Below are positions 5,101 through 20,780 of a stretch of 47,683 nucleotides of DNA, piece after piece. The stretch lies in IMG/VR virus record IMGVR_UViG_3300032053_000129, positions 1 through 47,683 of that record; one strand, given 5' to 3'. The position numbers and the translations under genes are program-made. Origin of the DNA: a virus. Numbering within the stretch: position 1 is the first letter of the stretch; each line of letters starts with the position of its first letter. The notes under the pieces were generated by a model, which made no database searches, was not told where the DNA came from, and saw only the letters and a list, made by a program, of their open reading frames with translations.

Positions 5101-5461
5101 CGTTGTCTCCTTCAAGTGGATTACGGGGTGTAAGCGATTCCCCTGGCATCAAGTTTCGTTTTATTTTCTTTCCTGCCTTGCCCACTTTCGGTGGATGGGC
5201 AGCGAGCGCGGCGCTTTCTCGTGCAAGGTCTTCCAGTGTTTTGCCGTCATCCTCTTCGCTGGGGGAGGCCGCCGGCTTGGCTACGCGTACCGTCTCATCG
5301 AATGTTGGCTCCTCGTCGTCTACCCCGAGCGCCCCTGTTGCGTCATGGATAACAACTTCGAAGGGGTCCGCATGAACCTCAACGTTCTCTTCGGTCAACT
5401 TTCGCTTCATGGCTTTACCGAGTAAAGCGATAACGTCTGCTTTTTCCAGTATTACTCTCAT
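5093..5461 (-). CDS. Hypothetical small acidic protein
   Basis: This 122-aa protein's ATG overlaps the helicase stop (ATGA) and its stop overlaps the nuclease start, so all three are translationally coupled. The N-terminus is a helix (A-D-V-I-A-L-L-G-K) followed by a short beta-rich part and a long charged, Pro/Ser/Ala-rich tail. No motif identifies a function. The coupling suggests a partner of the helicase or nuclease. Confidence 0.75.
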   Translation of the reverse strand: MRVILEKADVIALLGKAMKRKLTEENVEVHADPFEVVIHDATGALGVDDEEPTFDETVRVAKPAASPSEEDDGKTLEDLARESAALAAHPPKVGKAGKKIKRNLMPGESLTPRNPLEGDNDE

Positions 5462-7437
5462 TTCTTTATCTCCTTGGGCTTGGTGACCCCCCTAGGTACT
5501 GACGTTTCCATCTTGCAGCCTGCATCCCACGCCTTGATGCTGGCCTTCTGGCAGGCTTCGTATCTTGTGCACGTCAAGCAGTTGGCCTTCTCAGTGAGCA
5601 GCTTGCTGATGTCCTGACGCAGGTTGAGCGCTGACATCTGGTTCTCTTCAACTGTATGTCGCGCGATGAGATTGTATACCACGGTTTTCTCTACTTGCGT
5701 GATCCTGTGACTTCTCTTTGAGGATTGGTCCCAGTCGTCTAACTTCCAAGAGCGGCCGTAGTAGACCATGTAACGAGAGGACGTTAGATCGATCGAAATG
5801 CCGGTGCCTATTTTTCCTAAGTAGACGCGATAATCTTTAGTGCTGAACTCTTCCGCAATTTCTACTGCTTTAGAAGAGTTACTGGCGTCGACTCGCACGT
5901 GCTTGACCTTCCTGCGGGTCAGAAGCGCCTGGACGTCATCTATCTCGACATCGAAGTAAGTCCAGATCACGACCTTGTGCTCAGGATCTTCGAGGATGTC
6001 GTCAAGCAGGTCGTTTAAGGCATCGAGTTTAGCGTTTACGCCGTAACGCATTGTCCGCCTTGGGAGTTCGTCGGCGCGGGAACACCGTGGCGCCCCGGGC
6101 CGGATATTAGTTTCAACGCAGTAAACTTTTGAAGCACAAGTATCGCAGACGGTCGAAGGAGGCGGGCTATAATGAAAGCCACTGCAAATCTCCAAAAGCT
6201 TGCTAATGCGTACTGCACCGTTTGCGAAGGGGAAGTCCTCGTCTGGTAAACCGTTCTCTTTTACGGCGTAGTTATAATCACTGACCTGTTCAGGATAGAG
6301 GTCAAAGTACACGGGAACGAATGTCTGAGTCGGCATGTCCTTGCACTCGGCCAGCTTTTTTACTGAAGACACACTAGATACGATGGCGTTAAGTATGTGC
6401 AAGTTTTTATAGCCCGTAACTATATGTTTATTCCAGGGTGAAAAAGAGACGTATTTCTTTTGGAATCCTTGATAATCTTCTTTGATCAGGTACGGTGCCA
6501 AAAACTTGAGTTGAGAGTAGAGGTCCCGGGGGTCACCTTGACTTAACGTACCCGAGAGGAGGTAGCGTCTCGTAGCTTGTGCCGCCAGGCGCATGCAGAC
6601 TTTCGTTCGGACGCTGCTCAAGTGCTTGATCCGGTGTGATTCGTCCGCAACGATGATCTTGTAGGGTATTTGCGTAAGCCACTGTGGTTCTAGTGTTAAC
6701 GTTGCTACTTCTTCTTTCAACGCTTTTCGTGTCTTCCCTGAGAGAGTTTCTTGGATGAGCCTAACCTGTGTTTTGGGGTCGTTGACCTGTCTGACCAAGT
6801 CTAGGTCGGACTTGGGGAGTGGGAAGCGAGCCCCTACTAACGCCTTACGCGCTGCCAGATGCAGCATGGGCAAGCCGTAGAGACGCGCTGTGTCGAACGG
6901 TACGGTCACGACGTCGAAATCTTTGGCTTCTTTCAGGCCTTCGAGTTTGTCCTGTCTTCCACTGACCAGTGGGAGGCAAGAAAGTGCGCTACCGACGTGC
7001 TTGATAATTTCCTTTTGCCAATTTTTGGCTGCGACGAGAGGGCACAGGATTAGCGTCGGTTGTTTCAGGGCTTGAACTAGCTCGATGATGACAAGACTTT
7101 TGCCTGTGCCCATTTCCCAACTCAGGATGTACCTGAAATTGCGAAGCAAAAGACTGAGGCCTTCGTTCTGATGCGCGAAGTTGCCTGGGATATTCAGCAG
7201 CGTCCAGTTCTTGGTCTTGTCGATCCAAGTCTGTGCGTTTACGGCGTAAACCGCGTCGGGGGCGACGGTCTTGAAGTCCGCCACGACACGTTCGATGAAG
7301 GGGTGGAAGGCGGGGAAGTACCAGCGCTTTTCTGCCTTCTGCAACGTTGCGCCGTAGACACGAGACCAGATGCCGGAGATGGTTTCGACGTAAAAAACAG
7401 GCGTCCCGCCCGCTAGTTGGGATAAACAGATTTCCAA
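5458..7437 (-). CDS. SNF2-like superfamily 2 helicase/ATPase
   Basis: This is a 659-aa protein if translation begins at the TTG at 7437-7435, which has AAGGAGG six bases before it; the in-frame ATG at 7569 lacks such a site. Motifs: Walker A W-E-M-G-T-G-K-S (107-114), motif II D-E-S-H (265-268), motif III L-S-G-T (294-297), and motif VI Q-S-S-K-R-S-H-R-I-T-Q (571-581), which is close to the SNF2 form QxxDRxHRxGQ. Two Cys groups stand out: C431, C434, C440 and C452, and a C-terminal C620, C623, C629 and C641, possible zinc or iron-sulfur sites. It probably translocates on duplex DNA during replication or recombination. Two TTACGNCGTAA palindromes and one near-match lie inside it. Confidence 0.9.
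   Translation of the reverse strand: MEICLSQLAGGTPVFYVETISGIWSRVYGATLQKAEKRWYFPAFHPFIERVVADFKTVAPDAVYAVNAQTWIDKTKNWTLLNIPGNFAHQNEGLSLLLRNFRYILSWEMGTGKSLVIIELVQALKQPTLILCPLVAAKNWQKEIIKHVGSALSCLPLVSGRQDKLEGLKEAKDFDVVTVPFDTARLYGLPMLHLAARKALVGARFPLPKSDLDLVRQVNDPKTQVRLIQETLSGKTRKALKEEVATLTLEPQWLTQIPYKIIVADESHRIKHLSSVRTKVCMRLAAQATRRYLLSGTLSQGDPRDLYSQLKFLAPYLIKEDYQGFQKKYVSFSPWNKHIVTGYKNLHILNAIVSSVSSVKKLAECKDMPTQTFVPVYFDLYPEQVSDYNYAVKENGLPDEDFPFANGAVRISKLLEICSGFHYSPPPSTVCDTCASKVYCVETNIRPGAPRCSRADELPRRTMRYGVNAKLDALNDLLDDILEDPEHKVVIWTYFDVEIDDVQALLTRRKVKHVRVDASNSSKAVEIAEEFSTKDYRVYLGKIGTGISIDLTSSRYMVYYGRSWKLDDWDQSSKRSHRITQVEKTVVYNLIARHTVEENQMSALNLRQDISKLLTEKANCLTCTRYEACQKASIKAWDAGCKMETSVPRGVTKPKEIKK
6036..6046. 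repeat. TTACGNCGTAA palindrome (N=C)
   Basis: Exact copy inside the helicase gene, encoding Y-G-V-N. Confidence 0.8.
6261..6271. repeat. TTACGNCGTAA palindrome, one mismatch
   Basis: Near-copy in the helicase gene (last base G), encoding Y-A-V-K. Confidence 0.55.
7239..7249. repeat. TTACGNCGTAA palindrome (N=G)
   Basis: Exact copy in the helicase gene. The symmetry extends to GTTTACGGCGTAAAC (7237-7251). Confidence 0.8.
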
Positions 7438-7589: not shown

Positions 7590-8195
7590 TCAAGCGGCGG
7601 ATTTTCTTTTGGTACCTTTTGTCTTTTTCGTTTGAGTGGCCTGCCGCAAGTAGTGCACTGCGCGCATAATATTACTAATACTCTCTCCCAGTTGTCCAAG
7701 TCCGAGGTTGCAGCGTTGGCACAACAGCCCCCGGACTATTCCTGTTTTGTGGTCATGGTCTATTACCAAGGGGGGCGGGGCCCCACAGATGCCACAGACA
7801 CCGCCCTGTTCGGCAAGAAGAGTGGCTTCCATTTCAGGTGTAATCCCATACAAACATTTTTTTTGATATGCTCTGAATTTTGCGGGTTCGCGTTGTTGCT
7901 GTTTCTTGTGATATATTGCATCACAAGTCTTACAATAACTACGTCGACCATCCAACATTCTAGGATTAGGACCGAAATCCGTCAGTGGTTTAGGGGTGTG
8001 ACAGCGAACACATTCTTTTTCGAGGGGCATCACGTAAGTTTTGCGTCCATTCGCAAATCTTGTTTTTATTGCACACGATTTAGAACAAAAAAGTTGCTTA
8101 TTAAATTTACGAGCACGATTGATGTCATAAATAGATTTTTCAACCGAAACACCACAGCCAGCACAAACAACAGAGATTACGGGAGCTGTCTTCAT
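7590..8195 (-). CDS. Recombination endonuclease VII-like (HNH/His-Me finger) nuclease
   Basis: This is a 201-aa protein, start behind TGGAGGCGCTGATTC. The C-terminal half matches endonuclease VII: Y-G-I-T-P-E-M near 116, zinc cysteines C134, C137, C159 and C162, the catalytic I-D-H-D-H-K-T-G (145-152), and R-G-L-L-C-Q-R-C-N (Asn163). The N-terminal half adds further Cys pairs (C11/C14, C37/C41, C62/C65, C88/C91), probably extra zinc knuckles. T4 endonuclease VII resolves branched DNA before packaging. Small free-standing members of this fold can also be homing-type genes. The gene is visibly more A/T-rich than its neighbours, which fits recent acquisition. The 152 bases after it hold no gene. 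Confidence 0.87.
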   Translation of the reverse strand: MKTAPVISVVCAGCGVSVEKSIYDINRARKFNKQLFCSKSCAIKTRFANGRKTYVMPLEKECVRCHTPKPLTDFGPNPRMLDGRRSYCKTCDAIYHKKQQQREPAKFRAYQKKCLYGITPEMEATLLAEQGGVCGICGAPPPLVIDHDHKTGIVRGLLCQRCNLGLGQLGESISNIMRAVHYLRQATQTKKTKGTKRKSAA

Positions 8196-8480: not shown

Positions 8481-10229
8481 ATGGGCACATTCGGTGGCGG
8501 GAATACTCTGTTTATGGACCCGTATGCTTATGACGTCAGCAAGGGGGGTTCACATCCGAGCCCCTACTTTACGTACGGTCAGGTTTATAGCCCGAAAAGA
8601 CTTAAAGAATTGTTCAAGTGGTGCGAATTCCTTTTCTACAATAGTGCACAAATCTACGCCGCACTCCGAAAATTTGGGGAATACCCCATCACGGAATTCC
8701 TTTACGAAACCACGAATCAGGCCCTAAAAGGTAAACATAAGTTTCTTATTGAGAACGTTATTAGAGGACGCGAGTTACTCATCAAGGCGACGCTCGATAA
8801 ATACGTGTATGGTAATTGCTTCCTTTCCATGTACCAACCCTTCATACGGTTTTTGAAATGCCCACACTGCGGAGTAAGGACGAATATACAAAATATTCGA
8901 TATAAGTTCGCAGTAAAAAAACTTTCCTTTTCATACAAGTGTGCGGCATGTAATATGAACGTTATTGCTGGAGAGAAGGACGTCGAAGACCGCAAGATTC
9001 TTGTAAGCAAGAAAATAAACTTCATCAGGTGGGACCCCAAACTCATGGACATTGACCACAACCGCATGACGGGTGAAAGTGTTTACTACTATACAATTCC
9101 TAGGGAGGATATTCAGAAAGTCAACAATGGGCATAAAACCCTGATTGACTCGATGCCGTTAGAGTTTTTGAAGGCCATCAAGAATGAGAAGCAGTTCCGG
9201 TTCGCTCCTGACGCAATCTTCCACATGAAAGTCGGCGGGCCTGCGGGTATCAATCCTCAGTGGGGCTTGCCGCCGTTGCTTGCTGCGTTGCAACTCTTCC
9301 ACTATGCGCAGATTCTGAAGAAGGCCAACGAGGCGATCGCCCTCGACTACCTTGTCCCGCTGCGCGTTCTGCATCCCGCGCAGTCGTCGAACAACGCTGA
9401 TCCTCTGACAACCATCTCTCTTGAGCGTTGGATGGCCGAAATGCAGACCCACTTTCGAATGCAGAGGAAGGACCCCCTCCATATCATGTTCGCGCCCGTC
9501 CCCGTAGGTGTGACGCAGATCGGCGGAAACGGTCGCGCTCTCTTAACGCTTGGAGAACAACAAGAGGCGGAGAGAAACATCATCGCCGCTCTTGGTGTGC
9601 CACAAGAGTTCCTCTATGGCGGCATGACGAAGAGCGGCATGGAAGCAACGCTCAGGCTCATCGAGAACCAGCTTCAGACGCACATTAACGATCTTAAAGA
9701 CCTGCTCCAGTGGGTCGACGACAGTTGCGCGAAGTTCTTAGGTTGGGAGCGCATACGAGTAGATATGCAGGACTTTACGATGCTTGATGACAACACTAAA
9801 AAGCAGATGGTGATGAACCTCTTCATGGCCGGACAGCAGCAAGGCGCCCCGATCATCTCGCAGACAACCATGGCCGAGCTCTACGACATCGACCTGAAAA
9901 AAGAAGAGACGCGCATCAAGCAGGAAGCACTTGACGCGATTCGCCGACAAAACGAGATTCAGAAAGAAATCATGAAGATACAGAACAACGTGGCGCAGCA
10001 GGCGCAACAGCAAGCGCAGGTGGGTCCGCAGCAGTACAACCAGCAGCAGGTCATTGCGCAGGCTGATCAGATTGTGCAACAACTTGGAATGATGGATCCT
10101 AGCATGAAGCGCAGTCAGCTGCACGCCTTAGAGACTGAGGATTACGTGCTCTACTCAGTCGTCGTGCAACGGCTCGAACAAGCTAACTTGAGCGGCAAGG
10201 CTCAAGCTACGGCAGGGATGACAGGTTAA
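8481..10229 (+). CDS. Portal protein
   Basis: This 582-aa protein would form the dodecameric DNA gate at the capsid vertex. The region from about residue 280 to 450 has the portal pattern: E-R-N-I-I-A-A-L-G-V-P-Q followed by a Gly-rich turn, and T-L-R-L-I-E-N-Q-L in the long crown/stem helix region. The C-terminus is Gln-rich and helical. Unusual is an insertion with two CxxC pairs (C127/C130 and C154/C157), a zinc ribbon not typical of portals. No clear ribosome site precedes the ATG at 8481; the next in-frame ATG is at 8514. It is followed after four bases by an unknown gene and then the RNA polymerase genes. Terminase is not adjacent. Confidence 0.82.
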   Translation: MGTFGGGNTLFMDPYAYDVSKGGSHPSPYFTYGQVYSPKRLKELFKWCEFLFYNSAQIYAALRKFGEYPITEFLYETTNQALKGKHKFLIENVIRGRELLIKATLDKYVYGNCFLSMYQPFIRFLKCPHCGVRTNIQNIRYKFAVKKLSFSYKCAACNMNVIAGEKDVEDRKILVSKKINFIRWDPKLMDIDHNRMTGESVYYYTIPREDIQKVNNGHKTLIDSMPLEFLKAIKNEKQFRFAPDAIFHMKVGGPAGINPQWGLPPLLAALQLFHYAQILKKANEAIALDYLVPLRVLHPAQSSNNADPLTTISLERWMAEMQTHFRMQRKDPLHIMFAPVPVGVTQIGGNGRALLTLGEQQEAERNIIAALGVPQEFLYGGMTKSGMEATLRLIENQLQTHINDLKDLLQWVDDSCAKFLGWERIRVDMQDFTMLDDNTKKQMVMNLFMAGQQQGAPIISQTTMAELYDIDLKKEETRIKQEALDAIRRQNEIQKEIMKIQNNVAQQAQQQAQVGPQQYNQQQVIAQADQIVQQLGMMDPSMKRSQLHALETEDYVLYSVVVQRLEQANLSGKAQATAGMTG

Positions 10230-10919: not shown

Positions 10920-13900
10920 ATGCCTGAACTAACACCAGTCCTCACGCCGATTCTCATGGGTCCGCAGGAGAAGCGGGATCGCATCCGCGCGAAAGTACTC
11001 GAAGGTCTTCAAGAGTCCTTCCCGATCAAGTCTAGGAACAAGAACATAGAGCTTGCAGACCTGCGCTACGACCAGCATGATTTCAGTCCTTCAGAGCAGA
11101 AAGAGGCGATTCTCAAAGGCGATACTCTTTCTGAAGTTGTTAAGGGCACGGTCATTCTCAAAGATGCCGAAGGCAAGGTCATCGACAAGGCGAAGAACTT
11201 CACGCTGGCGCGTATTCCCTGGTTCACTCCAAGGCATACGTTGATTGTTGGCGGCAACGAATACTCTGTCTCAAACATGGTCCGCCCCAAGCCTGGCGTG
11301 TACGCACGCAAGCGCTCGAACGGCATTCTTGAAGCGCAGTTCAACATCGTAGGAGGCAGCAACTTCAACGTGAGCATGGACCCAGAGAAGGGTATTCCGC
11401 ATCTGGAGTACGGCTCGACGAAGATTCCGGTCTACCCAATCCTCAGGAAGGCCGGCGTGTCCCATGAGCAGATTGCGGAGTCATGGGGCAAGAAGATGGC
11501 CGATTATAACCACACAGAGACTTTCAAGAACGCAGACAAGACTGTCGAGAAACTCTACGGGAAGATGGTGCCGGAGTATGCTCGCGTAGGCGGCGCTACC
11601 TCTGACGTCATGATGCAGGAGATTCTTCGGCGTTACGGTGTCGTGAAGATGGACCCTGAAGTGAATGCCCGCACTCTCGGCAAGCCTTATGACACCGTGA
11701 CGCCGCATGGCATCTTAGACGCCTCAGGAAAGATCCTGAGAATCTTCAGACAAGCCGATGAAGTTGACGATAGAGACAACTTAGACTTCAAGAGCTTTCA
11801 CTCCATAGAAGACTTCTTCAAGGAGCGCATCAAGCTTGATGCTCGTGACATCGCGCGTAAGGCCGCAATCAAGGCCGAGGCTACTCCTGAAATCAGGAAG
11901 ATTATCGCAGCAGGCCCATTCACACGCGGTCTTATCCAGTTCATCAATTCGTCACAGCTGGTTGCTGTGCCAACACAGACGAACCCCCTGGAGTTGATTG
12001 ACTCGGCCGTACGTGTCACGTCCCTCGGTGAAGGCGGCATCTCAACCGAGCGCGCCATCCCCATGGAGGCCCGCCAGACGCATGTCACGCAGATCGGGGC
12101 TCTCGACCCGATTCGTACGCCCGAGTCTTTCAGGGCCGGCATCGACATCAGGGCCGCGATGCGGGCTATGACGGATTCTCATGGAAACCTCCACGTCCCC
12201 ATTTACGACGTAAATGCAAAGAAGCATCGGTATATCAGAGCTGGAGAGCTTCAGTCCTCTGTAGTGGCTTTCCCTAATCAAGAGATCAAAGGTACGGTCG
12301 ACGCGCTGGTGAACGGCATAGTCCGGCAAGTTCCCGCATCGAAAGTGCAGTACCAGATCCCGCACCCGTCAGTGCTCTATAGCCCGACGACAAATCTGCT
12401 CCCCTTCCTGGAGTCGTCACAGGGAAACAGAGCAATCATGGGGGCGAAGCACCAGACGCAAGCGCTGTCTCTTATCGAACGAGAAGAGCCGTATGTCCAA
12501 GTGCGGTCACAAACGGGAAAGTCGTTCGAGAAGTTGATGGGTGGCGTCATAAACCCCGTGACGCCGGTGTCAGGAACTGTGGCGAAGATCGACAAGGATT
12601 ATATCTACATCAAGCCGCATAAGATCAAACTCGGTGCTGCGGACAAGGACGCTGGGCTCATAAAGATTCCGTACGAGACCAACTTCCCGCTGGCGGCGAA
12701 GACGTTTTTGCACCATGACGTCACGGTCAAAGAAGGCGACGAAGTAAAAGCAGGGCAACACCTTGGGGAGTCCAACTTCACCCGTAACGGCACGCTCGCT
12801 CTCGGCAAGAACATGAGCGTGGCGTATATGCCGTATCACGGTTACAACTCCAACGACGCTGTGGTCATTAGTGAAGGTGCGGCAAAGAAGCTCACGTCTG
12901 AGAGGATGTACAAGATTGTCATCCCGAGAGACCCAGACTTGACGTTCAACAAGGACAAGCATCAGGTCTACTACGGGAACAGTTACCTGAGAGAGAACTA
13001 CAAGAATGTCGATACAGAGGGTGTGATCAAACCTGGGACGCAGGTTCATCCTGGCGAGCCAGTCATCTTTAGTCTCAGGAAATCTCAGCTGACATCGGAT
13101 GACATCATGCTTGGGCGCCTTCACAAGTCGCTGGCAAGGCCATACCGGGACAGCACTCACACCTGGGAGCATGACCATCCTGGTGAAGTCATCGATGTGG
13201 TAAAGACGCCGAAGAGGATTACCGTAACGGTTCGTACTAAAGAAATAATGGGAGTCGGAGACAAAATTTCAGGGCGCCACGGGAACAAAGGAGTCGTCTC
13301 GTTAATCCTGCCTGATGATCAAATGATCAAAGATGAAGCAGGTAAACCTGTTGACCTTCTTATGACTTCTGCCTCTATTGTCAGCCGCATAAACCCCGCT
13401 CAACTCATTGAAAGTGCCGTTGGCAAAGTTGTCGAAAAAACCGGCAAACCAATCTTAGTCGACAACTTCACTGGAAAGAACAACGTCAAGTGGGCCAAGG
13501 ACCTTCTCAAAGAGCACGGCGTCAAAGACAAAGAGACTGTGACTGACCCCATGACCGGTAAGAAGATTCCTGGGGTCTTCGTGGGCAGGCAGTATATCTT
13601 CAAGCTCTTCAAGTCTACTGACACGAACTACAGCGCTCGCGGCGTAGACACGTACGACGTAAACCAGCAGCCAACCAAGGGTGGAGCTCAAAGTGCAAAA
13701 GCTATCGGCAAAATGGAATTTGATGCACTCATCGGACACAATGCGAGAAATGTTTTACAAGAATCTGCGACGATCAAAAGCCAGAAGAATGATGAATACT
13801 GGCGGGCCCTCCAGCTCGGTTATCCGACTCCTCCGCCGAAAGCCGCATTTGCCAGTGACAAGTTCCTCAACATGCTTGTTGGAGCGGGCGTACGAGTCCA

Positions 13901-15293
13901 TAGAGAAGGTTCTCGCGTTTCTTTGGCTCCCCTGACAGATAAAGACGTGTTAGCCATGTCTTCCGGTGAGATCAAAGAGCCCACGCTGGTTCGTGCCAAG
14001 GACTTGAAGCCTGAAACTGGTGGACTTTTTGACCCCGTGACGACTGGGGGTTTGCAGGGTTCGAAGTGGGCGCATATTTCCCTGAGTGAACCTGTTGTTC
14101 ATCCCGTCTTTAGGGACCCAGTTCGTCGACTCCTCGGGATGAATGGCCCCCAACTTGATAAAGCCATCGCAGAGAAGGGCGGGAAGTGGATACAGGGAGA
14201 GTTGAAGAAGATTGACCTCGACAAGAAAGAGAAAGAACTTCTTGAAACCATGAAGGGCAAACGCGCGGATCAGTTAGACAGCCAACTGAAGCAGGTGAAG
14301 TATATCCGCGCTTTGAAGGCTCAGGGCCTAACACCGGACAAGGCGTATATTATTAACCATGTGCCCGTTATTCCGCCGGTGTTCCGGCCGGTCCTTCCTG
14401 GGCGGGGTGGCTCGGAGTTGATGTACGCCGACGTGAACCCACTCTATAGAGACTTGGTTTATGTGAATAATCAGTTCAAAGAGATCAAAGAATCAGGAAC
14501 TGTTCCTGATGAAGAAAAGAACCTGCGGCCTGTTCTCCATGCTGCTGTAGGCGCCGTCTTTGGCACAAGCGACCCCATTACGACCAAGTCTCAGGCTCGG
14601 GGCCACAAAGGCTTTTTGACGTACATCGCAGGAGTGTCGAGTCCCAAGTATGGGTACTTCCAGTCCAAGCTCATGAAGCGCACGCAGGACGTGGCAGGCC
14701 GCGGGACGATTGTCCCTGACCTGACTCTTGGGATGGACGAGGTGGGCATTCCGGACGATATGCTTTGGACGATGTGGGAGAAGTTCATCATCAAACGCCT
14801 GGTTGGTCAGGGCTATAGCGCTATCGATGCTCAGAAGATGGCCAAGGACCGGCATCCTGCGGCAAAAGCAGCGCTGTTGCGTGAAGCTACAGAACGGCCC
14901 GTGATTCTCAATCGTGCGCCATCCCTACATCGATTTAACATGATTGCGTCATATCCGCAGATGGTTCCGGGGAAAACCATTCGTATTAATCCCTTCATGG
15001 AGAAGGCAATGAACGCGGACTATGACGGCGATACCATGCAGGTTCATTCTCCTGTCGGGTTAGGAGCAGTCGATAATGCTAAAGCTATGACCCTGTCGAA
15101 AATGCTTTTCCACGACAAAGCAAAAAATGAGCTTCTTGTCTTCCCCCAACACGAAGCTATCATGGGTGTGGACCATGCTTCGACTGTGGATGAGGGCAAC
15201 AAACCGATCAAGTTCAATACCACAGCCGAGGCCATGAAGGCGTACCATGGGGGCAAGATCAAGTTGGGAACGCGGGTGACGATTGGCGACTGA
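10920..15293 (+). CDS. RNA polymerase beta subunit fused to the N-terminal half of beta-prime
   Basis: A 1457-aa catalytic subunit. Beta part (to about 1000): Q-G-N-R-A-I-M-G-A-K (501-510), G-Y-N-S-N-D-A-V-V-I-S-E (641-652), G-R-H-G-N-K-G (785-791), and the C-terminal N-Q-Q-P-T-K-G-G (915-922). Beta-prime part: from about 1013, W-A-H-I-S-L-S-E-P-V, V-P-V-I-P-P-V-F-R-P (1148-1157), the clamp region D-V-N-P-L-Y-R-D-L, N-R-A-P-S-L-H-R (1331-1338), and the catalytic N-A-D-Y-D-G-D (1365-1371) with all three metal-binding Asp. The usual N-terminal zinc finger of beta-prime is missing. The protein ends shortly after the catalytic loop; the rest of beta-prime is at 16769-18571. Beta/beta-prime fusions exist in some bacteria, but a fusion that is also split is unusual. 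The clamp helices that contact sigma seem present. Confidence 0.95.
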   Translation: MPELTPVLTPILMGPQEKRDRIRAKVLEGLQESFPIKSRNKNIELADLRYDQHDFSPSEQKEAILKGDTLSEVVKGTVILKDAEGKVIDKAKNFTLARIPWFTPRHTLIVGGNEYSVSNMVRPKPGVYARKRSNGILEAQFNIVGGSNFNVSMDPEKGIPHLEYGSTKIPVYPILRKAGVSHEQIAESWGKKMADYNHTETFKNADKTVEKLYGKMVPEYARVGGATSDVMMQEILRRYGVVKMDPEVNARTLGKPYDTVTPHGILDASGKILRIFRQADEVDDRDNLDFKSFHSIEDFFKERIKLDARDIARKAAIKAEATPEIRKIIAAGPFTRGLIQFINSSQLVAVPTQTNPLELIDSAVRVTSLGEGGISTERAIPMEARQTHVTQIGALDPIRTPESFRAGIDIRAAMRAMTDSHGNLHVPIYDVNAKKHRYIRAGELQSSVVAFPNQEIKGTVDALVNGIVRQVPASKVQYQIPHPSVLYSPTTNLLPFLESSQGNRAIMGAKHQTQALSLIEREEPYVQVRSQTGKSFEKLMGGVINPVTPVSGTVAKIDKDYIYIKPHKIKLGAADKDAGLIKIPYETNFPLAAKTFLHHDVTVKEGDEVKAGQHLGESNFTRNGTLALGKNMSVAYMPYHGYNSNDAVVISEGAAKKLTSERMYKIVIPRDPDLTFNKDKHQVYYGNSYLRENYKNVDTEGVIKPGTQVHPGEPVIFSLRKSQLTSDDIMLGRLHKSLARPYRDSTHTWEHDHPGEVIDVVKTPKRITVTVRTKEIMGVGDKISGRHGNKGVVSLILPDDQMIKDEAGKPVDLLMTSASIVSRINPAQLIESAVGKVVEKTGKPILVDNFTGKNNVKWAKDLLKEHGVKDKETVTDPMTGKKIPGVFVGRQYIFKLFKSTDTNYSARGVDTYDVNQQPTKGGAQSAKAIGKMEFDALIGHNARNVLQESATIKSQKNDEYWRALQLGYPTPPPKAAFASDKFLNMLVGAGVRVHREGSRVSLAPLTDKDVLAMSSGEIKEPTLVRAKDLKPETGGLFDPVTTGGLQGSKWAHISLSEPVVHPVFRDPVRRLLGMNGPQLDKAIAEKGGKWIQGELKKIDLDKKEKELLETMKGKRADQLDSQLKQVKYIRALKAQGLTPDKAYIINHVPVIPPVFRPVLPGRGGSELMYADVNPLYRDLVYVNNQFKEIKESGTVPDEEKNLRPVLHAAVGAVFGTSDPITTKSQARGHKGFLTYIAGVSSPKYGYFQSKLMKRTQDVAGRGTIVPDLTLGMDEVGIPDDMLWTMWEKFIIKRLVGQGYSAIDAQKMAKDRHPAAKAALLREATERPVILNRAPSLHRFNMIASYPQMVPGKTIRINPFMEKAMNADYDGDTMQVHSPVGLGAVDNAKAMTLSKMLFHDKAKNELLVFPQHEAIMGVDHASTVDEGNKPIKFNTTAEAMKAYHGGKIKLGTRVTIGD
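12203..12213. repeat. TTACGNCGTAA palindrome (N=A)
   Basis: Exact copy inside the polymerase gene. The symmetry extends to ATTTACGACGTAAAT (12201-12215), encoding Y-D-V-N. Confidence 0.8.
13652..13662. repeat. TTACGNCGTAA palindrome, one mismatch
   Basis: Near-copy (first base G) in the polymerase gene, encoding Y-D-V-N. Confidence 0.55.
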
Positions 15294-16767
15294 AGGCACA
15301 GCGAAGATTACGTCCGGCCTCGAACTCACTAAAGACGAGGTCAGGCGTTACTATGCCCGCCCTGACGTGCAGAAACAGCTTTTGCCGTATCTCCGCGGAC
15401 AAGACCTTCTTGTCGGACAATCTCCTGCGTTTAACCAGATCATCTACAAGCGCTACGACAAGGGCAATCCCATCCGGATTAGCACTCCGAAAGACTTGGA
15501 GTGGTACGGTGATCGGCGTCACACTGAATTTCACCCGACCATCGGAGCGCAGACAAATAAACTCTGGGTTGACCTTGATTCCGGTTCTTCTCGTGATCTC
15601 TCTTCCCTGAAATTGCTTGTTCCTGAAGTAGAGAACGCTCTCAAGAAGATGCCCCAGGTTAAGAACACGAGCATCACGTTTTCAGGTGGCTGTGGTTTCT
15701 ACGTTAGGGGGGAACTAGATAAGCATTATCCGACAGGGGAAATGCGGGAGAAGCTCAAAGCCGTTGTGCGAGATCTGGCGAAGAAAAGAGATGACTTAGT
15801 CGTTGACCGTCCGCCTAACCTGAACGAGGTTCGTCTCGACATCTCAACGTTCCATGACAAGGGGTCGATTCGTGCACCACATGCTCTCAATAGCGCTACC
15901 GGCTTTATCTCGATGCCGCTGACAAGAGAGCAGCTCAAGGGTTTTGACCCAGTCAACGACGCGAATCCGAGAAAGTTAGCTGCGGCAAAAGAGTTTGCCC
16001 CAGGCATTCCTGCTGCGAGGCTTACGTACGCCCTCCCAGACCTCCAAGACAAGACCTGGACGATGGCGATCCAATTGCACAACGCCGAACGTGCGGGAAA
16101 GCACTGGGACCTGCGTCTCGTGGATCCCAACACGACACATGCCCACTCCTGGGCGGTCCCGAAGGCGAAGCTTCCGAGTCCTCTGGACCCGCCTGTCCTC
16201 GCGGTTCACACCCCAACGCACACGGCGCACTACGCGCTCAATTACGGCGTAAAGGGGCCTAAAGAGATCAGCGAAGGCTATGGCAAGGGCATGGTGGAGA
16301 TGGTCCACAAAGAACCCGTAAACGTGATATCCTCGAAGCCGGATAAGATAAAGTTCGAAAGAAAAGTGAATGGACTGCCCCAACAATTTGTTCTGTTTCA
16401 AACGAAGGGTCAGTCCTGGATGTTGAAGAACGTGACAAAGACAACGAAAGAAGCCAATATGACACCTTTCCAACAGGGTCGCTATTTTGCTCTCCAGAAG
16501 TTGGGCTTAGCCGAAACTTCGACGGATCGACCATCAACGTTAGAGGCGCCGACTCCTCTGGAGACTGGCGACGAGGAAATGCCCGCGGGACAACTTGCCG
16601 CGGCACTTGCCCAGCTTCCGGAGCAGATGACGCAGGCTAAGGCGTTAACCGGCAAAGGTGAGAATGTCGAAGGGCATCTTAATCGGAACACCGTCTGGAG
16701 TGAACCACATCCGATCTCCAACGAAATGGCCACGGGGCCATCGCCTGTAATGCCAGGGCGTTTCTAG
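15283..16767 (+). CDS. LigD-like protein: primase-polymerase-like domain plus 3'-phosphoesterase domain
   Basis: A 494-aa protein starting at TTG 15283, overlapping the polymerase stop by 11 bases; the next gene starts one base after its stop. Residues about 20-215 resemble the archaeo-eukaryotic primase fold used by LigD: D-L-D (Asp97, Asp99), S-G-G-C-G-F-Y-V (134-141), V-R-L-D-I-S (Asp186), then R-A-P-H-A-L-N-S. In motif II the usual His is Tyr140. Residues about 255-385 match the LigD phosphoesterase domain: His266, H-W-D-L-R-L (His274, Asp276, Arg278), S-W-A-V-P-K (289-294), L-A-V-H (His309), and W-M-L-K-N near its end. There is no ligase domain. The roughly 100-residue tail includes G-R-Y-F-A-L-Q-K-L-G-L (399-409), a motif shared with virion-type proteins. 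DNA end repair or priming is inferred. Confidence 0.85.
   Translation: MATEGTAKITSGLELTKDEVRRYYARPDVQKQLLPYLRGQDLLVGQSPAFNQIIYKRYDKGNPIRISTPKDLEWYGDRRHTEFHPTIGAQTNKLWVDLDSGSSRDLSSLKLLVPEVENALKKMPQVKNTSITFSGGCGFYVRGELDKHYPTGEMREKLKAVVRDLAKKRDDLVVDRPPNLNEVRLDISTFHDKGSIRAPHALNSATGFISMPLTREQLKGFDPVNDANPRKLAAAKEFAPGIPAARLTYALPDLQDKTWTMAIQLHNAERAGKHWDLRLVDPNTTHAHSWAVPKAKLPSPLDPPVLAVHTPTHTAHYALNYGVKGPKEISEGYGKGMVEMVHKEPVNVISSKPDKIKFERKVNGLPQQFVLFQTKGQSWMLKNVTKTTKEANMTPFQQGRYFALQKLGLAETSTDRPSTLEAPTPLETGDEEMPAGQLAAALAQLPEQMTQAKALTGKGENVEGHLNRNTVWSEPHPISNEMATGPSPVMPGRF
16242..16252. repeat. TTACGNCGTAA palindrome (N=G)
   Basis: Exact copy inside the LigD-like gene, encoding Y-G-V-K. Confidence 0.8.
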
Positions 16768-16768
16768 G

Positions 16769-18571
16769 ATGTCGACGACGTCCACATTTGGCCGGCACTT
16801 ACTCAACGCCGCTATGCCCGCGGGGTACTCCATCGAGGGTCCCACGGGAAAGAGGGCATTGAACAAGAGCATGGCCGACTTGGCGCACAAAGACGCGCAC
16901 GTCTATGTTCGAACTATCGCAGCTCTCAAGAAAATAGGTGATAGGTTAGCTACTTCTGAGGGCCTGTCAGTTGGACTTGATGACATCGAGCCGGACTACA
17001 AGTCCAGAGATGCCGCACTGAAGCCTCATCTTCAAAGATTCAACGCCGCAACAAATGATGAACGCAAAAGAGAGATCGTCGAAGCGGCTCAAGTCGATGT
17101 CCTGAAGCATGTCTCTAGCCATCCAGGAACGATGACCCAGCAAGTGCGAAGCGGCGCACGCGGAAATCCAATTCAATACATGAAGATAGTTGGCTCTCCT
17201 GTATACGCCAGAAACGCCGCAGGAAAAACAGAGCCCTGGATGATCCACCGGTCGTACAGCGAAGGCCTCAAGCCTTCTGACTATTGGGTAGCTGGGAACG
17301 AGGCAATCTTAGACACCATCAAGTCAACCGTTTCTGTTTCGGAACCAGGCGAGCTCGCGAAGATCCTTGTCAGTAACATGCAGAATATTATTGTCACGGA
17401 GGATGATTGCGGGACTTCGAACGGTATTTTGATGCCCGCAGATAGCTCCGACGTGGTCGACCGTTTTTTGGCGCGGGATACAGGCGGATTCAAGAAGGGC
17501 GCACTGATTACTCCCGCAATCCAGAGCAAGCTCTCCAAACTTCAAGGCAAGATTCTCGTGCGGTCTCCCATGACCTGCGAGGCAGGGGACGGCGTCTGTC
17601 AGAAATGCCAAGGCCTTGATGAAAAAGGTCAGCTTCATGTTCACGGCACGAATGTGGGTGTGCGGGCTGCCCAGGCCATGTCAGAACCTCTAACGCAGTT
17701 CGCTCTCAGCGCGAAGCACGGCGTGATGACTGTCAAAGGCGCCAGGGCACAGGTTCATGGGGTCCAGGGTTTCAGACAAATCATCCAGACTCCGCATCAG
17801 TTTATCAACAAGGCGACCCTTGCCGAAAGAGACGGCAAGGTCTCGAAGATCGAGGTAGCACCCCAAGGCGGACACTACGTCTATGTTGATGATCATCAGC
17901 ATTATATAAACCCCAACCTGGACGTGACGGTTGTACACGGACAGGTCATGGAGCGCGGTGATGCCTTGAGTCAGGGTGTTCCCAAACCGGACGAGGTGGT
18001 CAACCATAAGGGTCTCGCCGCGGGACGCCTTTACGTCGTAAACACTCTGAAGAATCTCTACAAAGATCAGGGACAGGATTTAGATTCTCGGCACTTTGAG
18101 CTGCTGGCTAAGGGCGAGATGAATCACGTGCAGATTCTGAATGACCCGAGTAATACCTTCTTGAAGGGAGATATTGTTAGCTACAACCACCTCAAGTCGG
18201 CCCTGAGGCACGGCGTGAAGACAATGCCTATAGACGACGCCCTTGGGGAAACGCTTGGGAAAGAATACTTCCACTACTCAGCCGGAATGCGAGTTACGCC
18301 GCAGATAGCAAAGTTTCTCAAGACCCAGAAAGTCAACGAAGTGACGGTTGCTCCGAGGGCTCCCGAGGTGCAATTTATCATGAAGCCGGCAACGACATCT
18401 CCTCTTCTTGACCCCGACTGGATGGCGCGTTTGGCGCATAGAGACCTCAAGTCGTCCATCTTGCAGGCGGCGCAGTTCGGTGAAACTTCTGATATACACG
18501 GAACCAGTCCTGTGCCAGCATATGCCTTGAGTAGCACAGAATTCGGGAAGGGTCTGAAAGGGCGCTACTAG
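16769..18571 (+). CDS. RNA polymerase beta-prime subunit, C-terminal half
   Basis: This 600-aa protein supplies the part of beta-prime missing from the fusion at 10920-15293. It contains S-G-A-R-G-N-P (funnel/bridge-helix approach), a divergent bridge-helix region, V-T-E-D-D-C-G-T-S (Cys214), and the second zinc site T-C-E-A-G-D-G-V-C-Q-K-C (Cys270, 277, 280). The 7- and 3-residue spacings are the same as in bacterial beta-prime. It continues with V-G-V-R-A-A-Q-A-M-S-E-P-L-T-Q (296-310) at the base of the trigger loop. The C-terminal region resembles the beta-prime jaw and C-terminal helices. It starts one base after the LigD-like stop and four bases before the next gene, so it belongs to the coupled cassette. 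No alpha, omega or sigma gene is visible in the window. Confidence 0.95.
   Translation: MSTTSTFGRHLLNAAMPAGYSIEGPTGKRALNKSMADLAHKDAHVYVRTIAALKKIGDRLATSEGLSVGLDDIEPDYKSRDAALKPHLQRFNAATNDERKREIVEAAQVDVLKHVSSHPGTMTQQVRSGARGNPIQYMKIVGSPVYARNAAGKTEPWMIHRSYSEGLKPSDYWVAGNEAILDTIKSTVSVSEPGELAKILVSNMQNIIVTEDDCGTSNGILMPADSSDVVDRFLARDTGGFKKGALITPAIQSKLSKLQGKILVRSPMTCEAGDGVCQKCQGLDEKGQLHVHGTNVGVRAAQAMSEPLTQFALSAKHGVMTVKGARAQVHGVQGFRQIIQTPHQFINKATLAERDGKVSKIEVAPQGGHYVYVDDHQHYINPNLDVTVVHGQVMERGDALSQGVPKPDEVVNHKGLAAGRLYVVNTLKNLYKDQGQDLDSRHFELLAKGEMNHVQILNDPSNTFLKGDIVSYNHLKSALRHGVKTMPIDDALGETLGKEYFHYSAGMRVTPQIAKFLKTQKVNEVTVAPRAPEVQFIMKPATTSPLLDPDWMARLAHRDLKSSILQAAQFGETSDIHGTSPVPAYALSSTEFGKGLKGRY
18031..18041. 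repeat. TTACGNCGTAA palindrome (N=T)
   Basis: Exact copy in the beta-prime C-terminal gene. The symmetry extends to TTTACGTCGTAAA, encoding Y-V-V-N. Confidence 0.8.
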
Positions 18572-18574
18572 AAG

Positions 18575-19129
18575 ATGAGTACGTACTATACAGGCTATCG
18601 TGAGGCGCTCGCCTCAATCGGCTTGGAGAAACTTGCGAATCCTGTAGCGCGCTGGCTGGCGCAGAAGGCCCCAGCATTTCTACATAATTTCAGGGTTCAG
18701 ACTTTCGGACAGCCGGTCAAAGCCTTTCAACAGTTGAGAGCAGGTACTCTTATGGGAAAAGGCGGCCTAGTCCGGCAAGGTCTTTCTGCTCCTGGGTTGC
18801 TCAATAAAACTCTGCTTTACGGAATCCCCGCAGGAATGGCCGCTTATACTGCGGCAGGGGATGACCCCGACAAGTACGAGCAGATCGGTGGATTGGCCAC
18901 AGGAGCTCTCATGGGTAATGCGGCTTTCGGGCCACTCGGCATGATGGGGGCCATGGCCGCTATGCCGGTGGGGACTGCCATCGGGCGACATGTGGGTGGT
19001 GCTGTGCGACATCTCGCGACTGGTGAGCCTTCTCAGGCGTCAGGTCAAACATCTCCGCTACACCACCAATATGTACCGATGGCGGGGATAGCCGGAGCGG
19101 GTCTTTTGGGTGCCGGAGTCGGTGGATAA
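18575..19129 (+). CDS. Gly/Ala-rich hydrophobic protein, probably virion-associated
   Basis: This 184-aa protein starts three bases after the beta-prime half. Near its N-terminus is G-Y-R-E-A-L-A-S-I-G-L (residues 7-17), the 11-residue motif also seen in four other proteins here. From about residue 80 it is rich in Gly, Ala and Met, with glycine-zipper-like segments that could insert in or cross a membrane. Such proteins are often carried inside phage heads or ejected with the DNA. Function inferred only from composition and place. Confidence 0.78.
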   Translation: MSTYYTGYREALASIGLEKLANPVARWLAQKAPAFLHNFRVQTFGQPVKAFQQLRAGTLMGKGGLVRQGLSAPGLLNKTLLYGIPAGMAAYTAAGDDPDKYEQIGGLATGALMGNAAFGPLGMMGAMAAMPVGTAIGRHVGGAVRHLATGEPSQASGQTSPLHHQYVPMAGIAGAGLLGAGVGG

Positions 19130-19200: not shown

Positions 19201-19225
19201 TAAACCTGTGACGGAGGAAAAAGTC

Positions 19226-19750
19226 ATGAACCGCGTTGAAATGTTGAAGCTGGCGTATGCCCGTGGGGCGTTTCTTGCTCTCCGCGAGGCGGGTTATCAG
19301 GAGAAGGTAGCCGAGGACCTCGCGCTCAAGATCGCGGATCGTGATGCGCTCGATGTCCTAGGGGACGTCGGGATGGGTGCGGGCATCGGCGGTCTGGGTG
19401 GCGCGGCTCTTGGCGCGGGTGCTGGCGCGCTGTACAACCCGATGGCTCGGGCTTTCGGGGGTTCAGAGCGCAACTTGACCAATCTCCTGGAAGGGACGGG
19501 CGGTCTCCCGGGACGCAACCCCCAACTGCAACAGCTGCTCGGTGAGATGACTGGTGGCGTTCCGGGCGCTTCGCTCTCTGGGAAGTTCACTGGTCCGGGC
19601 GTCGGTGCTGCCACTGAAGCTCCGTCCAAGCTGCTCGACCTGATCCACCGCAACGCGACGGCGGGTAACGTTAATCTCGGTGCGCGCGGTGGTTTCGGTG
19701 CTGGCATGAGCGCGGGCGGTCTTGCTGGCGGCCTGATGGGCGGCGAGTAA
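19226..19750 (+). CDS. Gly-rich protein, probably virion-associated
   Basis: This is a 174-aa protein. The ATG at 19226 follows GACGGAGGAAAAAGTC. It has the shared motif G-A-F-L-A-L-R-E-A-G-Y at residues 14-24, then a charged helix, then two Gly/Ala/Leu-rich blocks typical of membrane-active or glycine-zipper proteins. It is the first gene behind the promoter at 19137. It resembles its upstream neighbour in layout (N-terminal motif, then Gly-rich body), so the two may serve the same structure. No known family recognised. Confidence 0.78.
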   Translation: MNRVEMLKLAYARGAFLALREAGYQEKVAEDLALKIADRDALDVLGDVGMGAGIGGLGGAALGAGAGALYNPMARAFGGSERNLTNLLEGTGGLPGRNPQLQQLLGEMTGGVPGASLSGKFTGPGVGAATEAPSKLLDLIHRNATAGNVNLGARGGFGAGMSAGGLAGGLMGGE

Positions 19751-19775: not shown

Positions 19776-20780
19776 ATGGCACTCTTCAAGCGCGCACATG
19801 TTCGTGGAATGTCGCACCAAATGGCGGCGCTCGGCCTCGTGACCTGGCCCTCGAAGCAGGCGGAGGAAATGGCAGCTGACGCGGTGGCGGATGATTTCAC
19901 GGATCAAGACGTTCGTGAAGTCACAGAACAGGACGGGTTGACACCCAAGGAAGCATCGCTCGTGGTGCGGCGCCTGGCAGCTGTGGCCAATGACCTTTCG
20001 GTCAAGACCGGCGGTGCCCGTGACGTGGGCGTCAACAAGTATGCCTCCGAGGCCAATCCGGTCGAAGCCGCGTACTACGCCGCGGATTGCGTCATGGTCA
20101 AGGCTGCGGCGGAAGCTGAAGCAGGGAACAGCGTGACCGGTGATGGGCGCTTCCAGACCGAGATGGCTGCGGGGACTGGACCGCTTGATGCGTCCCAGAC
20201 TCCGTCCAGCGAGTGGGTAGGCGAGAAAGGCACGACCCGTCTCGACACTACTCCAGGTGCGGTCGGCGCTGAGAAGCCGCAGGAAAAGAAACCAGGCGCG
20301 TCTGACGTGACTCCTGCCGAAGTGGCGAAGCTGTCGTCCTTCTTGAAGAAGCTGTCTGATGAGATGGCTCCTGTCGGGACTCCGAACGAGCCCAAGGACA
20401 ACCTCATCGCAGCAGGTGCTGTCGAGCAGGGCAAGACCGTTCAGCCTAAGGGCCCACAGATGGGTGAGCAGAAGCCCCAGCCGGCCAAGCAACAGATCAC
20501 CGCTGCCACTCCGAACGAACCTTCCAAACTCGCTCGTGCCCTCAATCTCCTGAGCAAGCTCTCCGAGGAGATGGAGGAGAGTGAGAAGAAGGACGAAGAG
20601 AAGAAAGACGAAAAGAAAGACGAGAAGAAGGACGAGAAGTCTGACGAAAAGAAAGACGAAAAGAAGGACGAGAAGAAAGAGCTTCCTGCCTTCTTGCAGC
20701 CGAAGACCGATGAAGTTGAGGCGAAGTCCGCGTCTGACGTTCTCGACACCCTCAAGCGTCTCGCCAACGCCGTCCGGTAA
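19776..20780 (+). CDS. Charged Ala-rich protein with KKDE repeats
   Basis: This 334-aa protein starts behind ATGGAGGAATAAAA. It has the shared motif G-M-S-H-Q-M-A-A-L-G-L at residues 11-21, then a helical Ala-rich region, a Pro/Gly/Thr-rich low-complexity middle and, from about residue 270, tandem K-K-D-E units. The final 30 residues are helical again. Highly charged, disordered proteins of this sort occur as internal head or scaffold-like proteins. Three consecutive genes (18575, 19226, 19776) now carry the same N-terminal motif. Function unknown. Confidence 0.78.
   Translation: MALFKRAHVRGMSHQMAALGLVTWPSKQAEEMAADAVADDFTDQDVREVTEQDGLTPKEASLVVRRLAAVANDLSVKTGGARDVGVNKYASEANPVEAAYYAADCVMVKAAAEAEAGNSVTGDGRFQTEMAAGTGPLDASQTPSSEWVGEKGTTRLDTTPGAVGAEKPQEKKPGASDVTPAEVAKLSSFLKKLSDEMAPVGTPNEPKDNLIAAGAVEQGKTVQPKGPQMGEQKPQPAKQQITAATPNEPSKLARALNLLSKLSEEMEESEKKDEEKKDEKKDEKKDEKSDEKKDEKKDEKKELPAFLQPKTDEVEAKSASDVLDTLKRLANAVR
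20585..20680 (+). repeat. In-frame tandem repeat encoding KKDE units
   Basis: Repeats of a GACGA(A/G)AAGAA(A/G)-type 12-base unit encode Lys-Lys-Asp-Glu about seven times, one copy having Ser for Lys. Copy number may vary between related phages. Confidence 0.75.

Follow-up and report, generated by a model that had tools for sequence, protein, structure and literature searches.

The viral fragment IMGVR_UViG_3300032053_000129 from IMG/VR (47,683 bases, analysed at full length and referred to here as the window) encodes a LigD-like protein between the two halves of the beta' subunit of a phage multi-subunit RNA polymerase. The protein joins an AEP (LigD-type primase-polymerase) domain to a LigD-type 3'-phosphoesterase (PE) domain and ends in a conserved tail. 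We tentatively propose, at a probability of about 0.4, that it serves the phage polymerase as a companion enzyme, cleaning 3' ends and filling short gaps, and that it is made and probably packaged together with the polymerase. The parts of this arrangement are known; their combination and its conservation are new.

Gene order and the split polymerase

Three open reading frames (ORFs) on the same strand make up the operon:

10920..15293, + strand: fusion of RNA polymerase beta and the N-terminal part of beta' (beta'-N), 1457 amino acids, P0002, identified by Pfam, PHROG and NCBIfam matches and by motif positions
15283..16767, + strand: LigD-like AEP-PE-tail protein, 494 amino acids, TTG start, without a ligase domain
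16769..18571, + strand: C-terminal half of beta' (beta'-C), 600 amino acids, P0003, identified by PF04998, TIGR02386 (positions 549-1067) and alignment A2

This order, with an 11-base overlap and a one-base gap at its junctions, had been proposed from the letters of the window alone (hereafter the sequence-only reading), and the stop and start positions bear it out. The beta'-N stop codon TGA (15291-15293) lies within the middle gene, which starts with TTG at 15283, and the middle-gene stop codon TAG (16765-16767) is followed after one nucleotide by the beta'-C ATG at 16769. Joint translation of the three genes, part of the same reading, is strongly suggested by overlaps of 11 or 4 nucleotides and TAATG-type junctions that are conserved among relatives.

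P0002 is recognized as beta by Rpb2_6 (E 1e-52) and as beta'-N by Rpb1_1 and Rpb1_2. It carries GDKISGRHGNKG at 13257-13292 and the catalytic motif NADYDGD at 15012-15032, and ends ~86 residues beyond the latter; P0003 is beta'-C by Rpb1_5 (PF04998, E 2e-18). An NADFDGD-type motif and full beta/beta' coverage thus mark the enzyme as a multi-subunit RNA polymerase. Given that the two halves cover positions 157-533 and 549-1067 of the rpoC model TIGR02386, the split appears to cost essentially nothing of beta'. The break lies ~70 positions upstream of that between cyanobacterial rpoC1 and rpoC2 (P0002 stops at 551/619 of rpoC1), and Vibrio phage D69 and Salmonella phage Arash, both cultured but more distantly related, split beta' at the identical position (alignment A2).

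Relatives of this polymerase form a useful series for how polymerase genes split. Beta and beta' share a single ORF by direct evidence in L073-L076, L086, L087 and L143 and, judging from ORF length, probably also in G017-G019, G021, G025, G026 and G029, and other relatives split beta' or both subunits.

Domains and fold of the middle protein

The identity of the two domains is close to certain:

15325..16002, + strand: AEP domain, residues 15-240 (PF21686; Foldseek; ratio of nonsynonymous to synonymous substitution rates, dN/dS, 0.031)
16042..16437, + strand: PE domain, residues 254-385 (PF13298; phmmer match to 3p4h; Foldseek TM-score 0.83)

LigD_Prim-Pol (PF21686) matches residues 59-232 with an E value of 7.7e-7, above the curated cut-off, and the LigD PE family (PF13298) matches residues 264-340 with 4.3e-6, slightly below it. 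The archaeal PE structure 3p4h is matched directly by phmmer (E 1.5e-6), and a nine-sequence profile finds, by sequence alone, the archaeal PE and the LigD Pol structures of P. aeruginosa and M. tuberculosis. An AlphaFold model built from an alignment of 18 homologues (predicted local distance difference test, pLDDT, 76.5; both domains mostly ~80-95) replaced an earlier, poor model from nine close sequences (pLDDT 52). In Foldseek searches with this model, the AEP domain matched the non-homologous end joining (NHEJ)/LigD polymerases 5dmu, 3pky and 2fao (E ~1e-10, target-normalised TM-scores 0.63-0.65) and the PE domain matched archaeal 3p4h (0.83); a fold search of BFVD gave generic primase-like matches only. 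The primase-like and 3'-phosphoesterase calls of the sequence-only reading are therefore upheld by profiles and structure comparison alike, with both LigD folds matched rather than a mismatch.

Pol followed by PE is also a known domain order of LigD. Relatives of the middle protein match TIGR02778 at E ~1e-11, and the best matches to the NCBIfam LigD equivalogs reach 44-64 bits against cut-offs of 144-989. Since these scores fall far short and a Pfam scan of the 494 amino acids found no ligase domain, as had been noted from the sequence, the protein is a LigD-like Pol-PE and not LigD. A tblastn search of 50,697 phage records returned no match to it, and no close cellular relative, and thus no cellular source, was found in a scan of genome contigs; between a plasmid LigD and a phage AEP, identity is only 25%.

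Active sites and selection

Catalytic residues were scored in alignment A3, which holds 18 AEP-PE homologues, and for PE in 54 distinct phage domains:

15526..15534, + strand: EFH motif (H84); E82 and H84 invariant in A3
15565..15579, + strand: AEP motif I, WVDLD, metal ligands D97 and D99; invariant in A3
15682..15702, + strand: AEP motif II, SGGCGFY; the histidine of sxH is tyrosine here
15832..15840, + strand: AEP motif III, RLD (D186); invariant in A3
16072..16116, + strand: PE active-site motif QLHNAERAGKHWDLR (H266, H274, D276, R278); all four invariant in 54/54 phage PE domains
16213..16233, + strand: PE active-site motif PTHTAHY (H313, Y317)

In the second PE motif, H313 is kept in 53 of the 54 domains (the other has a gap) and Y317 in 52. 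Between the window and L001, dN/dS is 0.041 for the whole gene, 0.031 for AEP and 0.043 for PE, compared with 0.017 for beta'-C and 0.025 for beta. By these measures PE function is clearly under selection. AEP is selected as well, but the polymerase activity of the window copy is uncertain. The metal ligands that define the AEP superfamily are present (DhD in motif I, hD in motif III) and the SGG.G backbone of motif II is invariant among the 18 homologues, but the sxH signature is not: the window and several relatives have GFY, others GFH or GYH. In addition, the motif-II arginine kept by nearly all relatives is cysteine in the window alone. The histidine of this motif has been described as required for nucleotide binding in AEPs (PMC4538821). 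Fold and motifs I and III still place the protein in the AEP superfamily. H84 is the probable equivalent of the ribonucleotide-selecting histidine of LigD Pol, a comparison made by eye from the shared EFH motif and based on the description of His111 (PMC8656161).

Conservation among related phages

Loci were gathered by beta'-C alone and not by the enzyme, which makes them an unbiased sample. At beta'-C identities of at least 57%, AEP-PE lies between the polymerase halves in 16/17 loci, in the same place and on the same strand; at 46% or more, it does so in 17/23. On a beta'-C tree of 59 sequences, a single gain and a single loss account for the distribution, and the branch of the gain has full support. 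Almost every relative checked has an AEP-PE start that either abuts the beta'-N stop or overlaps it, by 11 or 4 bases, and an AEP-PE stop that overlaps or abuts the beta'-C start, TAATG-type junctions included; in L040, two small genes are inserted before the AEP-PE gene. The possibility that the gene is a random insertion absent from most polymerase loci, which would have told against the sequence-only reading, does not fit its presence in 16 of the 17 close loci, and the gene is under strong purifying selection. Judging from this distribution, the middle gene is not a random insertion.

The tail and the shared motifs

Behind PE follow ~100 residues of tail, which has a history of its own:

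16531..16764, + strand: conserved C-terminal tail; a separate small protein in L043 and L014; always adjoins beta'-C
16468..16509, + strand: short motif FQQGRYFALQKLGL at the tail start, common to the N-termini of neighbouring proteins
18575..19129, + strand: small protein, shared motif MSTYYTGYREALASIGLEKLA at the N-terminus
19208..19750, + strand: small protein, shared motif LAYARGAFLALREAG close to the N-terminus
19776..20780, + strand: protein, shared motif AHVRGMSHQMAALGL at the N-terminus

L014 has lost AEP and almost the whole of PE and has 5 kb of other genes in between, yet its tail remains directly next to beta'-C. In L043, the sister of the clade, a separate 101-amino-acid protein beside beta'-C is homologous to the tail (E 0.0026). 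Because the tail stays by beta'-C in the one and stands alone in the other, the enzyme module was probably joined onto an older small protein of the polymerase locus.

The motif at the tail start (F..G....AL.KLG) recurs at the N-termini of the three proteins just downstream. Its pattern has four matches in the window against 0.42 expected, a count that is partly circular given that the pattern was chosen after two examples had been seen. An independent profile is the fairer test, and one built from the AEP-PE family alone has a single clear match outside the family, at the N-terminus of a small protein of the 179-kb relative G002 (E 8e-5). Deeper relatives carry a different tag, M.NKYLEKIA, at the start of many proteins, and PE domains are there fused directly in front of tags of this type. 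N[KR]YLxKI-type tags, mostly N-terminal, occur in 2-5 proteins per ~20-kb locus against at most 0.07 by chance. Whole loci with M.NKYLEKIA-headed proteins far above chance are L059, L063, L064, L067, L083 and L090. A literature search for KYLEKIA found nothing, and M.NKYLEKIA is an unreported tag, possibly a signal for capsid targeting or processing. In T4 and giant phages, N-terminal propeptides send proteins into the head (PMC5694885); by analogy, the shared tags may act like such head-targeting propeptides.

Ku, ligase and primase genes

Searches for Ku in 14 related records found none, which leaves room for a host Ku. Among AEP-PE-type contigs, the longest of 170-179 kb, those searched with PF01068, PF01653 or PF09414 yielded neither a DNA ligase (ATP- or NAD-dependent) nor an RNA ligase; most of these contigs are fragments or of uncertain completeness, which limits the weight of both absences. 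G002 encodes a DnaG-like primase (PHROG 47, E 4e-10) and a sigma-70-type factor; a second polymerase set was sought there and not found. Given that no Ku or ligase was found and that G002 has its own DnaG-like primase, an accessory role in processing ends is more likely than either complete end joining or replicative priming, and the G002 primase led to the rejection of replicative priming as the main role. The sequence-only reading had suggested a coupling of transcription to DNA end repair or priming: of these, end joining is not supported and priming is weakened. G002 also carries a reverse transcriptase gene (87609-88796, equal to L102 7609-8796; PF00078, E 1.7e-18).

LigD pieces in other phages

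PE-ligase fusions are encoded by the related phages L127, L129-L131, L133-L135 and L137-L142, and L132 has separate AEP and PE genes 3.3 kb apart. AEP or PE domains lie within very large multidomain proteins in L126, L128, L131 (with InPase and SNF2) and L136, and PE-SNF2 helicase proteins sit between the beta' halves, on the other strand, in L059 and L064. Eleven of the 13 contigs with PE-ligase or AEP/PE proteins encode a relative of the same polymerase, which in seven of the 11 occupies single ORFs of 2059-2564 amino acids, probably beta-beta' fusions. In the PE tree, the domains encoded by split-polymerase genes cluster together with a support of 82, beside those of the polyvalent-like L126 and L128. 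Two further proteins were recorded: a 1269-amino-acid protein with PE, an ATP-dependent ligase and further domains (L095 9921-13730, G004 67921-71730), from a phage whose polymerase locus is without AEP-PE, and a 1743-amino-acid protein in which a C-terminal LigD-type primase domain precedes a rubrerythrin domain (L136 5957-11188).

A proposed companion enzyme and its rivals

In the reading that we favour, the AEP-PE-tail protein would be translated together with both parts of the polymerase and would travel with it, probably inside the virion. On entry, or in early transcription or replication, it may clean damaged 3' ends by taking off 3'-phosphates or ribonucleotides and may fill in short gaps of the phage DNA, with the remaining nicks left to a host ligase; relatives that encode PE-ligase proteins would supply a ligase themselves. 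Enzymatic activity, packaging, polymerase contact and the repair role are what we infer. Giant phages package multi-subunit RNA polymerase (PMC5694885), a precedent that by analogy makes delivery in the virion plausible.

Several observations weigh against this proposal. L014 has lost the AEP-PE part, which is therefore dispensable at least there, and the beta' gap of deeper relatives holds unrelated genes on either strand, so that position alone is no proof of functional coupling. The exchange of the motif-II histidine for tyrosine in the window and several relatives, together with the window-only cysteine, makes polymerase activity uncertain, and neither the vicinity nor the AEP-PE-type contigs yielded a ligase or Ku. 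The window pattern of the shared motif was drawn up after examples had been seen. Virion proteomics for the window phage or a close relative was not found.

The strongest rival, which we consider somewhat unlikely, is that the beta' gap is a hot spot collecting tagged cargo genes, with the enzyme expressed as part of the late operon but not linked to the polymerase in function. The gap of deeper relatives can be as short as a few bases (L058) or span several kb with other genes inside it; some of these are encoded on the opposite strand, and PE-helicase fusions are among them. In other phages, more than 10 kb separate the PE-ligase genes from the polymerase. However, strand, order and translational overlaps are kept in 16/17 clade loci despite protein identities of 41-44%, and the tail remains beside beta'-C even where the enzyme is lost. 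A bolder form of our own proposal seems unlikely: a packaged, physical complex of RNA polymerase and LigD-like enzyme would couple transcription to 3'-end repair or priming of the incoming genome, and LigD modules would be a general accessory of phages with multi-subunit polymerases.

Transcript-primed replication, in which transcripts of the phage polymerase would have their 3' ends trimmed by PE and extended by AEP, coupling transcription to the start of DNA synthesis, is distinctly improbable. LigD Pol has a preference for ribonucleotides, and PE resects them at 3' ends (PMC8656161), and the operon joins such activities with an RNA polymerase, but G002 encodes a DnaG-like primase and the operon is adjoined by structural rather than replication genes. 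Still more doubtful is true end joining, with host Ku and host ligase helping the enzyme to circularise or repair the phage genome. Both domains belong to LigD families, and some mycobacteriophages supply Ku and use the host LigD; many bacteria, however, are without Ku, and neither Ku in the 14 related records nor ligase in AEP-PE-type contigs was seen. That the protein works mainly as a subunit for the structure or assembly of the split polymerase, with relic enzymatic domains, as the tail adjoining beta'-C and the loss of the motif-II histidine in the window and several relatives might suggest, is highly improbable in view of the invariant PE active-site residues (54 domains) and AEP aspartates and of a dN/dS that is lowest in AEP.

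Relation to known systems

Bacterial LigD (Pol-PE-Lig; P. aeruginosa, M. tuberculosis) shares the AEP and PE folds and most catalytic residues with the window protein, which has a phage tail module instead of a ligase and is encoded within an RNA polymerase operon, with no Ku found. The best fold matches, 5dmu for AEP and 3p4h for PE, come from the split NHEJ set of Methanocella paludicola and a stand-alone archaeal PE. NHEJ activities are separate, co-operonic proteins in M. paludicola (PMC4538821), and such functions can sit on separate polypeptides; the window protein, in contrast, fuses two activities and has RNA polymerase as its operon partner. Mycobacterial PrimPolC (6sa0, 6sa1), a strong fold match, is likewise a LigD-like AEP without a ligase domain of its own and acts on short gaps. 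To our knowledge, PrimPolC is without a PE domain, is not phage-borne and has no link to RNA polymerase genes.

Among phages, mReC (Weinheimer and Aylward, 2020; PMC7481178) are likewise large tailed phages from IMG/VR metagenomes with cell-like beta/beta'; the main text of that paper is silent on ligase, primase and any split of beta', and the mReC capsid family PF07068 has no match in the window proteins scanned. The AR9/PBS1-type virion RNA polymerase carries an HD phosphohydrolase-type domain (PMC7598289) and thereby also ties a nucleic-acid hydrolase-type domain to a split phage polymerase, but HD is fused directly to a beta fragment, whereas AEP and PE are encoded by an ORF of their own that lies within the beta' split. 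Phage polyvalent proteins (PMC5512222) recall those relatives whose PE-ligase or AEP/PE domains lie in very large multidomain proteins, and the InPase domain of L131 (PF18823) is of a type discussed there. L126, L128, L131 and L136 resemble this class; the window protein, with two enzymatic domains and a tail, falls outside it. LigD is not mentioned in the main text of the polyvalent-protein paper, and the polyvalent-protein, jumbo-phage and mReC papers have no mention of LigD or ligase in a polymerase-linked sense. The open literature searched, which leaves most subscription papers outside, contained no account that we could find of LigD domains linked to a phage RNA polymerase.

Bacterial and archaeal end joining is the known setting of LigD-type enzymes. 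Selection has fixed a form without ligase in a phage RNA polymerase operon, and this, together with other LigD pieces in phages with related polymerases, points to an unrecognised role in processing nucleic-acid ends in these phages. The protein is a concrete candidate, open to testing, for an enzyme that may accompany the phage RNA polymerase, and it offers a candidate role for the hydrolase domains already seen on other split phage polymerases. The short shared protein tags, in turn, may mark packaged proteins in these phages.

Neighbouring genes and insertions in the polymerase

One further feature lies directly upstream of the operon:

8481..10229, + strand: probable portal protein (weak PHROG portal match, E 0.007)

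The gene at the equivalent position in phage Arash is annotated as portal protein, and this upstream gene makes it probable that the operon is placed among structural genes. Farther upstream, on the other strand, the window encodes a ParB-like protein (1557-2492, -; PF02195, E 4e-9) and a recombination endonuclease VII (7590-8195, -; PF02945, E 2e-20). Promoter and terminator scans scored no better than shuffles, and neither Rfam families nor PADLOC defence systems were matched.

The polymerase genes of several relatives are interrupted in frame at conserved active-site motifs. In L008, an intein-like insertion without a Pfam match (11114-12097) separates GDKL from SGRYGNKG in beta, a site that is also interrupted in L006-L016 and is free of insertions in the window. 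In L001, 540 residues (5188-6807) are inserted in beta' directly after the catalytic N.DYDGD and contain a LAGLIDADG domain (E 1.4e-9), which makes this an intein-like element at the catalytic aspartate motif; similar ones occur in L014, L021, L029 and L060.

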